Origin: Methylocystis sp. IM3
Lineage (GTDB): Bacteria; Pseudomonadota; Alphaproteobacteria; Rhizobiales; Beijerinckiaceae
Assembly: GCF_038070105.1 (NCBI RefSeq)
Contig: NZ_JBBPBZ010000002.1
Location: forward strand, 798,501-862,500
Direction of reading: 5' to 3'
DNA: 64,000 bases
The number at the start of each line of letters is the position of its first letter. The stretch's first letter is position 1. This document shows, piece by piece, positions 23,569 to 53,673 of this stretch. The translations under genes and the position numbers were made by a program. Under the pieces are notes generated by a model. It saw nothing but the letters and a program-made list of their open reading frames with translations. It was not told the origin of the DNA and ran no database searches.

Positions 23569-23627
23569 TTGATTTCATGGCGAGAGAGACGGGGCTCGAA
23601 CCCGCGACCTCCGGCGTGACAGGCCGG
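23569..23627. repeat. Left attachment site (tRNA-Asp 3' fragment)
   Basis: Identical over 59 bp to 53615-53673. Positions 23578-23627 correspond to the 3' 50 bases of tRNA-Asp (CCA, acceptor strand, T arm, variable loop and anticodon arm through the anticodon). The remaining 5' part of the tRNA is absent here, so this copy is not a gene. Confidence 0.9.
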
Positions 23628-23967
23628 AGGTTTCGCAATCAGATCAAGGGCTTTCAGAGAGTTTGCTCACGGGAAGTCCCTTTACTTTCAGTTCGCGCAT
23701 TTCGCGCAGTCTGAAAAGCGGCAGGGGGTGCAACGCGGCAAAAGAAAACGCCGTGCTGGGGATGAGAGTCCAGCACGGCGCCAACAATTCGATTAGGAAA
23801 CCAGGCAAGCTTCACCAGAAAACCTATACCGACTTGCCTGCGGCGGCAACGGTTTTTCCGGCGGACGACACCTTGCAGAAGCTGATCACGGTTTCGCGCT
23901 GCGACCTTGATCAGCGCTTGATCAGGATCGCTTCGGACGATTTTGACGCCCCACCCTCTAGCTCAGG
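23628..23967. other. Island left-end non-coding region with hairpins
   Basis: 340 bp without a convincing gene. It contains a perfect 11-bp inverted repeat CGCCGTGCTGG / CCAGCACGGCG (23749-23759 and 23770-23780, 10-base loop) and a second one, AGGCAAG / CTTGCCT (23803-23809 and 23833-23839). A 105-codon open frame (23663-23980) crosses both hairpins but shows no recognisable protein. Position just upstream of the replication-type genes suggests a leader, operator or replication-associated structure. Confidence 0.5.
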
Positions 23968-24294
23968 GTGGCGGAAATGAGCAAGCTCGCCATCAAGCGC
24001 GCGTTCGCTATTCGGAACGAAAAACTCACGCCCTGCTCCCGGCTCGTCTTGGTCGCCATCTGTGACGAGATTGAGCACGACCGCGCCCTCACATGCTCGA
24101 TCAGCCAAAACAAGATCGGCCGGAAGGTCGGTGTGACCCATAACACTGTTGCTCGGCGCGTCGCCGATCTCTGCGAGCTTGGATACCTGACTGTCACCCG
24201 TCAGCGCGACGCACGCGGTTATCAGAAGACGAATATTTACCGCGTCAATCTGCCGGTCGGGGCCGAGCCCTCTTGCGATGGGGGCCGCTCATGA
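23968..24294 (+). CDS. Winged-helix DNA-binding protein, phage/island type
   Basis: 108 residues from a GTG; an ATG at 23977 with GGCGGAA before it is an equally good start. A helix-turn-helix is clear: CSISQNKIGRKVGVTHNTVARRVADLCELGYLTVTRQ, given here as its parts ISQNKIGRKVGVTHNTVAR and VADLCELGYLTV. Such proteins stand at the head of replication or regulatory modules of prophages and satellites. Its stop overlaps the next gene's ATG, indicating coupled translation. Confidence 0.7.
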   Translation: MAEMSKLAIKRAFAIRNEKLTPCSRLVLVAICDEIEHDRALTCSISQNKIGRKVGVTHNTVARRVADLCELGYLTVTRQRDARGYQKTNIYRVNLPVGAEPSCDGGRS

Positions 24295-25469
24295 TCGGCC
24301 AGAACATCTTTCGGGAGAAACATCGTGAACGGTTCCTTACCGTTGACAAAGCGAAATTTTCTGGTCGTCTCTCTGCTGAGGCGCTCGGCGTCCACGACTA
24401 CTTACTGAGCAAGCCGGACGACTGGATAATCTGCGAGGCTCACATTCGAAATCGCTTCGGATGGGGCCGCAAAAAATATCAAAGAGTCATGCGCGAGCTG
24501 CGTAGCGCTGGCTACCTGCAGCTTCAACCGATCCAATCCGCGGTGGGCCGGTTCGTCGGAACTAAATACGTCTTGTTTGAAAAAGCCCAGCAGGAGGATG
24601 TTAAGAGCAAAAGTCTGTGCCTTGACAGTGAAAAAGTGGCTTACACCGAGAGGTCACTTTTATCGCCCGGCGGCAAAGGGGGCTCCATAGAGTATAACGA
24701 TCTTAGACTGAATAAAGATTACCCTCCCTCCCCCCGCGATCAGGCAGAGGAAAAAACTGGGGGGCATGCGCAAGCGCAGGAATTCGATGACGAAGAGGAG
24801 GCGGAGAGGGCCGCCCTCATCCTCCGAGGCCAGGACCGCGGAGAGGCTTTCTTGGCATTCGATAGGAAATCCAAGAGACCGCCGATCATCGAGAAACCGC
24901 AGCAGAGCCGAGAGGACGTGCCCCCAAAAGCGAGGCGGTTCAAGCAATTCCGTTCTGAGATAACGATCAAAAACAACGGTCAGAAACGCGGGAGCGGTAT
25001 CGCCATAGGGTGCAGTTCTCCAAGGAATACTGAGGGCGTTTCCCAGGACGATCTAGACCGGTTTGAGCGCTTCGTCGCTGCTTGGCAATTCATGCCAGGC
25101 CGAGAGAACATCGATGCGGCAAAGCGTGCTTTCCTATCGCTTGGCGCTTTGGATCGGGAGCTTTGTATTAAAGGCGCGGAAGCGCTGCAAGTCCCTCCGG
25201 AGCGCCGCGTCTTTGCCGTGACGTTCATCCGACAGAGGCAATGGGTGTTCCAGCGCAAGGGCGCAAATGTGCAGCCATGCGAGTTCACGAACCCGTTGAA
25301 AGGCCGAGCCGTCGAACACGACGCGATACCGCTTCCAAATGGCCAGATTTTTCTGAAGCCAGGATCACCCGAGCTCAGCGCCCGGGAAGAATGGGAACGG
25401 CGGCAGTTTGGAAAAGCCAAGGGCGGCTGCTTCAGGCCGACGCTCTGGCCGCCGACTGACGACTCATGA
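24291..25469 (+). CDS. Phage replication-type protein, N-terminal winged helix
   Basis: 392 residues. The ATG at 24291 overlaps the previous stop (ATGA); a TTG at 24273 is in frame but unlikely. N-terminal winged-helix segment: AEALGVHDYLLSKPDDW, RFGWGRKKYQRVMRELRSAG. The middle is charged and low in complexity (EFDDEEEAERAA); the C-terminal region (about 255-340, FERFVAAWQFMPGRENIDAA) resembles helper/loader-like parts of phage replication proteins. Exact role unknown; initiation or helicase loading is inference from architecture and position. Confidence 0.55.
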   Translation: MIGQNIFREKHRERFLTVDKAKFSGRLSAEALGVHDYLLSKPDDWIICEAHIRNRFGWGRKKYQRVMRELRSAGYLQLQPIQSAVGRFVGTKYVLFEKAQQEDVKSKSLCLDSEKVAYTERSLLSPGGKGGSIEYNDLRLNKDYPPSPRDQAEEKTGGHAQAQEFDDEEEAERAALILRGQDRGEAFLAFDRKSKRPPIIEKPQQSREDVPPKARRFKQFRSEITIKNNGQKRGSGIAIGCSSPRNTEGVSQDDLDRFERFVAAWQFMPGRENIDAAKRAFLSLGALDRELCIKGAEALQVPPERRVFAVTFIRQRQWVFQRKGANVQPCEFTNPLKGRAVEHDAIPLPNGQIFLKPGSPELSAREEWERRQFGKAKGGCFRPTLWPPTDDS

Positions 25470-25608
25470 CGACTACCGGGGCCGGTTGCCTTCTCGGGTC
25501 CTTCCTCCGCCTGGCCAACAGGGAGAAGGCGGGGGTCCGGGGGAGGAAACGAAATCTATATTTTTATTAGGGTTTAATATGCTGACGGGTTAAAGGAATC
25601 CGGTTGAT

Positions 25609-52203: not shown

Positions 52204-52253
52204 CGGGAGTCCGAAAAACAGGAGCGCGGATTCTCAGAAGCGGACGATTGAAA

Positions 52254-52463
52254 ATGAAGAAACCGTCGAAGTTTTTGCAAGGGGACGTTTCTCGCGCCAT
52301 CAAGAGCGCGCTGGCAGGCGGTTTTAAGTTTGAAGAAGTGCGCGTCGAGCCCGACGGCACGATCGTCATTGCTTCCTCGCAGCGTCTAGCGGCTGAGCAT
52401 GATGCGCTTGGCGTGGTCGAACTCGACGCTCGATTAGAGAGGGACGCGGATGGGAAGAGTTAA
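52254..52463 (+). CDS. Small hypothetical protein upstream of the integrase
   Basis: 69 residues from the ATG at 52254 (TTG at 52248 also possible). It reads KPSKFLQGDVSRAIKSALAG then FKFEEVRVEPDGTIVIASSQ. It overlaps the integrase start by 14 bases, so both are cotranslated. The size and position recall excisionase-like or recombination directionality genes, but no helix-turn-helix is evident; unknown. Confidence 0.6.
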   Translation: MKKPSKFLQGDVSRAIKSALAGGFKFEEVRVEPDGTIVIASSQRLAAEHDALGVVELDARLERDADGKS

Positions 52464-53552
52464 AATCCCATATTACGTTGTGCGATACGGGCGCGGTTAT
52501 TGGCAGGCGAACGCTGCAATGCGCGCGGCAGGATTTGCTTGCGTAGCCTGCGGCCCGGACGGACCGGCGGCGTGGGCGCGCGCCAAGGAAATAAATGACC
52601 TATGGCAAAAGCATAAAACCGAGCGTGTTGTTCAGCGTCCGCCCGGATTTCGGCGCGGCTCTATGGCCGAAGCCTTCGCCAAATATCGTGAAACGCCGGA
52701 GTGGAGCTATAAGGCCGAAAGGACCCGGGAAGAATGGCTGCGCGCCTGGAGATGGATGGAGCCGTATTTCGGCGACATTGCTCCTTCCGCCGTGACGATG
52801 CGTCTCGATTTTCCGCGAACGAATGGCGAAGAAGGTCAGCCAACGCGAAGCTCATCGCTGCATCAAAATTTGGCGCGCGCTCTGGCGCGTTGCCGCCGCG
52901 CTCAAATATTGCGTCAAGGACGCTGATCCGGCGCTTGGTGTCGTCAATACTGAGCCGGCCCGCCGACAGGAGTTATGGCACTACCGGGAAGCGGCGACGC
53001 TCGTGAAGACAGCGCTGCGCGCCGGGTATCCAGGGCTTGCAGCGCTAATAACGGTATCTTGGGACAGCTCACTACCCTGTTGACGTCCGTACATTGACGC
53101 CCGCGCAGCGCGCCCGCGACGAACAGGGTGAGTTTTTCCGCATCGCGCGCGCCAAGACCGGCCGGGAGGCCGTCGGGACCCTCTCTAAGGCCGCGGTGCG
53201 CATCATGGATGGGTATCTCGCGCAGCTCGGTGCGGAGATCGCCCCCGGAGCCGCAATTTTCAGAAACCGCTCCGGCGCGCCCTACAGCAAAGACACGCTC
53301 GGCGACGATTTTCGAAAAGTGCGGGCGCTTGCCTTCGGTTCGAACGAGCGGCGCACGCTGGCGGACTTTCGGCGCAGCGGCGCGAGCGAAGCGCTGCGGG
53401 GCGGCGCATCGATGGAAGCGCTCGGCCAGAAATTGGCAAACGACGTGGCGTCGAGTGCGCATTTGGCAAGAACTTATGTGCCCGTCGACGTGAGCATCGT
53501 TCGGACCGCCGATCGGGCGCGAAGGGAGGGAAGAAAGCGGAACAAAGTCTGA
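52450..53552 (+). pseudogene. Island tyrosine integrase with two frameshifts
   Basis: Three frames must be joined: MGRVKIPYYVVRYGRGYWQA to about 52810; MAKKVSQREAHRCIKIWRAL to about 53076; then VDVRTLTPAQRARDEQGEFF to the end. An extra T in a TTTT run (52810-52813) and an extra base near 53077 account for both shifts. Catalytic-domain features remain: VSWDSSL-PVDVRTL, LADFRRSGASEALRGG, and the terminal RTYVPVD with the nucleophile Tyr candidate. Placed next to the intact tRNA-Asp, it is the expected integrase of the island. Two sequencing errors are possible, otherwise inactive. Confidence 0.83.
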
Positions 53553-53614
53553 AATTCAGAGAAAAAGTCCGTCAGCACCATTATGAAAAGGAGCCGAACA
53601 CATGCTGCAAGGGG

Positions 53615-53673
53615 TTGATTTCATGGCGAGAGAGACGGGGCTCGAACCCGCGACCTCCGGCGTGACAGGCCGG
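53615..53673. repeat. Right attachment site overlapping tRNA-Asp
   Basis: Identical to 23569-23627. It spans nine bases downstream of the tRNA and 50 bases of its 3' part. Integration here keeps the tRNA intact because the element carries the matching 3' end. Confidence 0.9.

Follow-up and report, generated by a model that had tools for sequence, protein, structure and literature searches.

The locus described here raises the question of how a block of accessory genes came to lie beside a transfer RNA (tRNA) gene in the genome of a methanotroph. The block is a segment of about 30 kb in Methylocystis sp. IM3, found at positions 23569 to 53673 of a stretch of 64,000 nucleotides of contig NZ_JBBPBZ010000002.1, referred to below as the window. 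Direct repeats bound it, an intact tRNA-Asp(GTC) gene is the target, a tyrosine integrase gene adjoins the right repeat, DNA of plasmid type lies inside, further layers lie outside the left repeat, and some related species carry an empty site. The segment is very probably an integrated genomic island, made by a tRNA-Asp-type tyrosine integrase that is encoded beside the right attachment site. It is a real and decayed island of an ordinary kind, and most likely the product of its integrase.

The features on which this reading rests are the following.

23569-23627, no strand: left attachment site (attL), a partial tRNA-Asp copy (anticodon arm to 3' end) plus 9 bp
53615-53673, no strand: right attachment site (attR), the same 59 bp as attL, overlapping the intact tRNA-Asp
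53624-53700, minus strand: intact tRNA-Asp(GTC), the attachment gene (ARAGORN; Rfam RF00005 at 68.5 bits over 53627-53700, without the CCA)
52450-53552, plus strand: tyrosine integrase gene with a broken frame, in open reading frame (ORF) pieces 52450-52926, 52823-53083, and 53094-53552

The two 59-bp direct repeats are identical and spaced by 30,046 bp, so that the exact boundaries claimed in an earlier note on this DNA are correct. ARAGORN and Rfam agree on the tRNA-Asp(GTC) under the right repeat, which is the single tRNA gene of the window. Its CCA occupies 53624-53626 and is followed by nine repeat bases (53615-53623), as the same note had stated. The identity segment is larger than the tRNA part by these 9 bp, and about 50 bp of the block are plain tRNA sequence. 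Exact matches to the 59 bp occur at two places only in the 4.9-Mb assembly, namely, attL and attR. Such an exact repeat is far beyond chance, and the two copies are best read as the attachment (att) sites of an integrative island. In G018, a metagenome-assembled genome of the same species, the extension past the CCA agrees less well (attL ...GGAAATTTCATGG, attR ...TTGATTTCTATGG).

The integrase frame of the window carries two small indels relative to that of G018 (L068:14354-15460), which is an open frame of 368 amino acids ending 62 bp from attR. A fold search assigned the protein to the lambda-Int/Cre fold, and both the catalytic-domain fold and the tyrosine nucleophile of tyrosine recombinases are present. 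A search of solved structures by sequence returned no match, and matches came from the fold search alone. Pfam PF00589 was matched at E ≤ 0.01 by three of the 22 family members scanned. In an alignment of 50 members, K237 and R309 are found in all, the tyrosine is invariant, and R215, near the place read as Arg I, is likewise present in all 50. The place read as Arg I from this alignment is occupied by Ser (45 members), Ala (4), or Tyr (1, G018), and the motif PxDxR is kept in every member. Place 306 is Ala in 40 of 50 and His in none, and the usual box II histidine appears to be missing.

Relatives of the integrase (E ≤ 1e-10) occur in five of 39 genomes of the genus, the window's own included, directly before tRNA-Asp in four of them and 5 kb before it in G022. 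A pattern scan of species genomes gave 13 loci of the family, that of G018 included. Ten adjoin an intact tRNA-Asp(GTC) in the same orientation at 75-470 bp, two a partial tRNA-Asp copy, and one a tRNA-Arg; without G018, the counts are 9, 2, and 1 of 12. The tRNA-Asp end recurs as a second, partial copy in 11 of the 12 other genomes, and in 8 of the 12 this copy lies on the same contig and strand, at a distance of 14.6-120.9 kb. The ungapped block of identity stops at the same place of the anticodon arm (query 55-59) in 9 of the 11 repeat pairs. The pairs of G018 and G050 were left out of this count of nine, as an indel between their copies makes an ungapped comparison misread both; their BLAST limits are 59 and 60, respectively. 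No paper on a tRNA-Asp integrase of such kind or on this island was found in a literature search.

A few side observations concern the same gene and its integrases. In Devosia, an integrase relative (L118) lies beside tRNA-Asp, and the translation of its matched stretch contains stop codons. G022 has an isolated 5' half of tRNA-Asp (L071 6119-6168), 2.1 kb left of its attL copy. In G014 (L082), tRNA-Asp is cut at the repeat end by a run of N, which is an assembly gap and perhaps a collapsed att repeat. An intron was considered for this 318-bp interruption and rejected, since it consists of N and Rfam has no match there.

The left border of the acquired DNA does not coincide with attL. The right flank was searched in the 39 genus genomes and matched in 38; flanks were taken from 32 of the 38 other genomes (G017, G020, G021, G027, G030, and G033 were left out). 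The features of the two sides are these.

13098-16298, plus strand: histidine kinase that borders the empty tRNA-Asp site on the left (Pfam; G008, G016)
16299-23568, no strand: outer layers on the left side of attL; G008 and G016 have none of this DNA between the kinase and tRNA-Asp
16439-16927, 17081-17470, and 20154-20879: outer-layer genes of unknown kind
17556-20081: outer-layer TonB receptor gene
20904-21581: outer-layer ExbB gene
21604-22101: outer-layer DUF188 gene
22244-23449: outer-layer acyltransferase gene
53711-57816, plus strand: right core flank, Sdh5 and Mfd (Pfam), after tRNA-Asp in relatives

In G008 and G016, the stop of the histidine kinase is followed after 30 and 44 bp by one intact tRNA-Asp and then by Sdh5 and Mfd. 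In G002, tRNA-Asp is preceded by a remnant of the kinase and about 340 bp. G003, whose Mfd is the most similar to that of the window species (94% identity), carries a kinase cut short, then the TonB-receptor block (window 16.5-20.1 kb) and 7 kb of different DNA in which the tRNA-Asp end is represented by a single weak, degenerate copy; tRNA-Asp comes next. The kinase or its end thus stands left of tRNA-Asp in 4 of the 32 relatives, and in G018 it is found beyond the island. The remaining 27 have other genes upstream of tRNA-Asp or contigs that end too early. The likely ancestral left neighbour of tRNA-Asp is the histidine kinase; a loss of DNA in G008, G016, and G002, instead of a gain in the window species, is the less simple alternative. 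As the empty join lies at about 16.3 kb, the stretch from 16.3 to 23.57 kb is additional DNA too, and attL is rejected as the left border. The locus is a layered accretion of about 37 kb, with the 30-kb unit as its inner part.

The switch from housekeeping to accessory genes that the earlier note had placed exactly at both repeats is therefore true on the right, where the tRNA borders on Sdh5 and Mfd just as it does in relatives, but not on the left, where extra DNA lies outside attL. An uninterrupted join of the flank at 23568 to tRNA-Asp, which the note had proposed to look for, is present in none of the 32 relatives. Its reading of the segment as an island inserted in tRNA-Asp between att sites holds, with an integrase gene beside attR and empty sites in other species.

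The outer layers differ in their distribution. The TonB block is common to the window and G003, and 20154-22064 is found at the same place only in G018 among the genomes compared. The stretch 22065-23571, with the acyltransferase, is replaced in G018 by 100 bp, and the difference stops at the att site. In other species, DUF188 lies 0.4-3.3 Mb from tRNA-Asp on a shared contig (G001, G002, G004, G008, and G012) or, in the remaining species with a strong match, on a contig other than that of tRNA-Asp. The window genome has no second DNA-level copy of this gene (21604-22101).

The formation of the island may be pictured as follows. A circular element would have been joined to tRNA-Asp by the integrase at the segment that runs from the anticodon arm to the 3' end. 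The element would have brought one copy of the 3' part, leaving the tRNA intact at attR and a partial copy at attL. Its cargo would have come for the most part from plasmids of the genus, with a block of repABC backbone and its core site inside. The tRNA-Asp site is a hotspot, with the further layers between 16.3 and 23.57 kb to the left of attL.

The block of plasmid type comprises three features.

26857-28144, minus strand: broken tyrosine recombinase of repABC-plasmid type (C-terminal piece 26857-27234, N-terminal piece 27965-28144)
27586-27933, minus strand: YjdM/PhnA zinc-ribbon protein (Pfam; TIGR00686)
28264-28286, no strand: palindromic site TCCGATAA-N7-TTATCGGA, a putative recombination site of plasmid core type

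The middle of the recombinase is replaced by 538 bp carrying YjdM, and its pieces share 84% and 69% DNA identity with a secondary contig of G008. The recombinase pieces, the palindrome, and a stretch resembling the beginning of a DUF1403 gene stand together in window 26857-28388 as on Methylocystis plasmids; M. iwaonis pSS37A-Re-3 carries repC, recombinase, and DUF1403 together, and 20 Methylocystis plasmid records are among the matches listed. The fragment 26857-27234 was also considered as a prophage remnant (87% match to G018:C28), and the plasmid context explains it better. Of the 13 secondary contigs that belong to G000, G003, G008, and G022, 11 carry the palindrome pattern once each, with no match for the reversed control. 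Two of the largest contigs have it as well, that of G000 (in this island) and that of G003 (once). The secondary contigs are probably plasmids, and one of them, G022:C2, matches a plasmid record of Methylocystis sp. MJC1. G018 has eight such places, two of them in the island (C90 93011 and 94471), where they flank a 1.45-kb module with an ORF of 284 amino acids that is absent from the window. The single site of the window has the outer flanks of this pair. On these junctions, the difference looks like the gain or loss of a module by site-specific recombination, although the two G018 sites have spacers of unlike sequence and length.

Directly inside attL lie genes of phage-like character, followed by a phosphatase gene. 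PHROGs were run on eight window ORFs only, and the matches were rep, small terminase, and integrase.

23968-24294, plus strand: phage-like replication initiation protein, small winged-helix (PHROG 270, E = 3.9e-11)
24273-25469, plus strand: second replication-initiation-like protein (PHROG 4707, E = 4.1e-8), open in the window, with stops in G018
25609-26214, plus strand: terminase small subunit-like protein (PHROG 57, E = 2.5e-17)
26459-26908, minus strand: DSP-PTPase-like phosphatase (Pfam PF04273)

Relatives of the phosphatase at about 60% identity lie 0.3-4 kb from tRNA-Asp or its end copy in G028, G031, and G032 (L096, L094, and L123), within 0.3 and 1.5 kb of tRNA-Asp in G028 and G031.

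The cargo occupies most of the remaining island.

28540-29070, plus strand: flavin reductase (Pfam)
29223-32578, plus strand: MacAB-type exporter (HlyD adaptor 29223-30437, MacB 30461-32578; Pfam)
32571-32936, plus strand: cytochrome c (Pfam)
33224-34000, minus strand: SPFH/slipin protein (Pfam; 85.5% DNA identity on a plasmid of Methylocystis sp. MJC1)
34482-34763, minus strand: fragment of a Cys/Met pyridoxal-phosphate enzyme, C-terminal end only (Pfam PF01053 positions 345-380 of 381)
35325-37421, minus strand: aconitate hydratase (NF005558, 878 bits; 77.5% DNA identity on an M. heyeri plasmid)
37615-38442, plus strand: YiiX-like C92 peptidase (Pfam)
38549-39409, plus strand: LysR-type regulator (Pfam; substrate-binding domain alone matched)
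40142-42418, plus strand: copper-type P1B ATPase (CopA-like) with HMBD (TIGR01511, 591 bits, above cut-off; Pfam)
42953-43783, plus strand: polyphosphate kinase 2 (PPK2; TIGR03707, 331 bits, above cut-off)
43832-49634, minus strand: CusCBA-type Cu/Ag efflux (CusA 43832-47023, CusB 47020-48408, outer membrane protein 48405-49634)
49631-50107, minus strand: YtkA-like protein (Pfam)

CusA aligns over its full length with E. coli CusA structures. The methionine triad (aligned to places which we take to be 573, 623, and 672) and the motif GAMVDAAIVMIENAH of transmembrane segment 4 are kept, as in Cu/Ag pumps of the HME-type RND class. Judged by homology, the cargo is mainly one of predicted Cu/Ag efflux and resembles genes of Methylocystis plasmids; it probably confers copper resistance. 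Part of it is fragmentary, namely, the end of the Cys/Met enzyme and the LysR domain.

The 30-kb unit is present in the window and in G018, about 99% alike where the contigs of G018 cover it (35.9-40.8 kb is a contig gap there). One further difference between them is the following.

51980-51981, no strand: point where the window is without 2.74 kb present in G018

The 2.74 kb found in G018 only holds a PepSY protein, a partial cation efflux protein, and most of a helix-turn-helix gene. Both island copies are decayed, partly in different genes: stops interrupt the rep gene (24273-25469) in G018 but not in the window, and the integrase frame is broken in the window. The G018 integrase was considered as an intact working copy and rejected, as its residues 202-210 are without the motif common to the other 49 aligned members. 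This stretch looks as though its reading frame had been shifted by one change and restored by a second, and the enzyme, open but doubtful, may be impaired too. Neither known island copy is thus expected to excise by itself, since the integrase frame of the window is broken and that of G018, though open, is without the conserved motif.

Four other origins of the segment were weighed. The whole 30-kb unit could be a small plasmid of repABC type inserted at tRNA-Asp, which is unlikely. Recombinase, core site, and DUF1403 start are arranged as on repABC plasmids, and relatives of the Cus cluster and of the aconitase and slipin genes occur on plasmids, but the plasmid block is broken and amounts to only about 1.5 kb, and none of the 26 island ORFs scanned with Pfam matches RepA, RepB, or RepC. 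The tRNA-Asp integrase is also a different enzyme, with 19% identity to a relative of the plasmid recombinase (L124:375-1421), and a profile comparison of its family with the recombinase of L124 gave no useful alignment. Equally without Pfam matches in the 26 ORFs, some small ORFs lying outside the scan, are the relaxase and type IV secretion genes of an integrative and conjugative element. That the repeats arose from duplication of a tRNA-Asp fragment by rearrangement, with no integrase, is highly improbable. Fragments of tRNA-Asp do occur near the locus in several relatives (the degenerate copy of G003, the 5' half of G022), but an integrase gene adjoins attR, and 9 of the 11 repeat pairs share their end in the anticodon arm, with the two indel pairs at BLAST limits of 59 and 60.

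The phage-like genes at the left end of the island could point to a decayed prophage or phage-plasmid that brought the cargo, the island having arrived as a phage. This origin is improbable: no capsid, portal, tail, or large-terminase match was found by Pfam in the 26 ORFs, and the attR-adjacent integrase has one match, at 33% identity, among 50,697 phage records. Quite improbable, too, is a phage satellite whose core would be the integrase, the replication genes, and a small terminase for diverting the packaging of a helper phage, with the metal genes as cargo. Two rep-like genes and a small-terminase-like gene do stand directly inside attL, and relatives of the latter (10 of 39 genomes, the window's own included) adjoin portal and head genes in both genomes looked at, G003 and the same-species G018. 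The satellite is nevertheless unsupported by the related tRNA-Asp islands: no relative of rep or terminase at E ≤ 1e-4 was found in those of G041, G043, G050, and G022, searched end to end, or at both ends of those of G040, G044, G047, G048, and G049. The small terminase has no match among the same phage records, the rep gene of G018 is broken, and an element of 30 kb with metal genes would be a large one among phage satellites.

Integration by the tRNA-Asp integrase remains the preferred origin, and several observations weigh against it. Beyond the missing direct join at 23568, the sole same-species genome, G018, also has the island, so that no gain or loss confined to the 30-kb unit is observed. 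Two of the 11 repeat pairs contain an indel. The integrase lies 5 kb from tRNA-Asp in G022, at the opposite end of its island in G040, and at tRNA-Arg in L114. Residues 202-210 of the G018 enzyme, in the box I stretch, are unlike those of all other aligned members. The entire family deviates from the usual catalytic residues, and its activity is for this reason not certain.

A wider idea is put forward tentatively. The integrases may form a hitherto unrecognised clade dedicated to tRNA-Asp(GTC) through Hyphomicrobiales and neighbours, with a displaced box I arginine (PxDxR), and may drive islands that measure 15-120 kb. Those in Methylocystis may swap cassettes with repABC plasmids via a conserved plasmid resolution site. 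The swapping is proposed because one strain has a module between two sites and its sister one hybrid site. The methane enzyme of methanotrophs is copper-dependent, and the island shows a methanotroph gaining and keeping copper-efflux genes, with plasmid-type cargo fixed in a chromosomal tRNA hotspot. The integrase and tRNA-Asp offer a testable pair of enzyme and target with an odd catalytic motif, and the palindromic plasmid site may act as a point of cassette exchange.

The closest known kind of element is the tRNA-associated genomic island with a tyrosine integrase (P4-type and similar). Its marks are found here: direct repeats with the 3' part of the tRNA, an intact tRNA, an integrase gene adjoining one end, accessory cargo, a layered hotspot, and an unoccupied site (G008 and G016, joined at 16.3 kb). 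The integrase family differs in its rare matches to PF00589, in box I/II residues that are not RKHRH, and in the location of most loci at tRNA-Asp(GTC). PMC8138268 was also used for this comparison. In Methylocystis sp. SC2, putative genomic islands of 17 and 63 kb have been described (PMC3794950); they belong to the same genus and carry phage-related genes. They are likened by description only, and neither tRNA-Asp nor metal efflux is named in the part of that account used here. The Cus cluster of M. rosea pGW6_1 shares the set CusA-CusB-TolC-FixH family-PPK2 (76.3% DNA identity over 60% of the query) but is plasmid-borne, with copper-binding genes in between and PPK2 at the other end. For the palindromic site, pdif modules and Cre/lox-type plasmid resolution are the systems to compare. 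Common to them are a palindromic core site, mostly one per secondary contig, an adjoining tyrosine recombinase, and, in G018, two sites that flank a module. The site sequence is presumably neither dif nor loxP, and it differs from these systems in that the spacers of the two G018 sites are unlike each other. The integrase family and this plasmid site are the interesting parts of an otherwise ordinary island.

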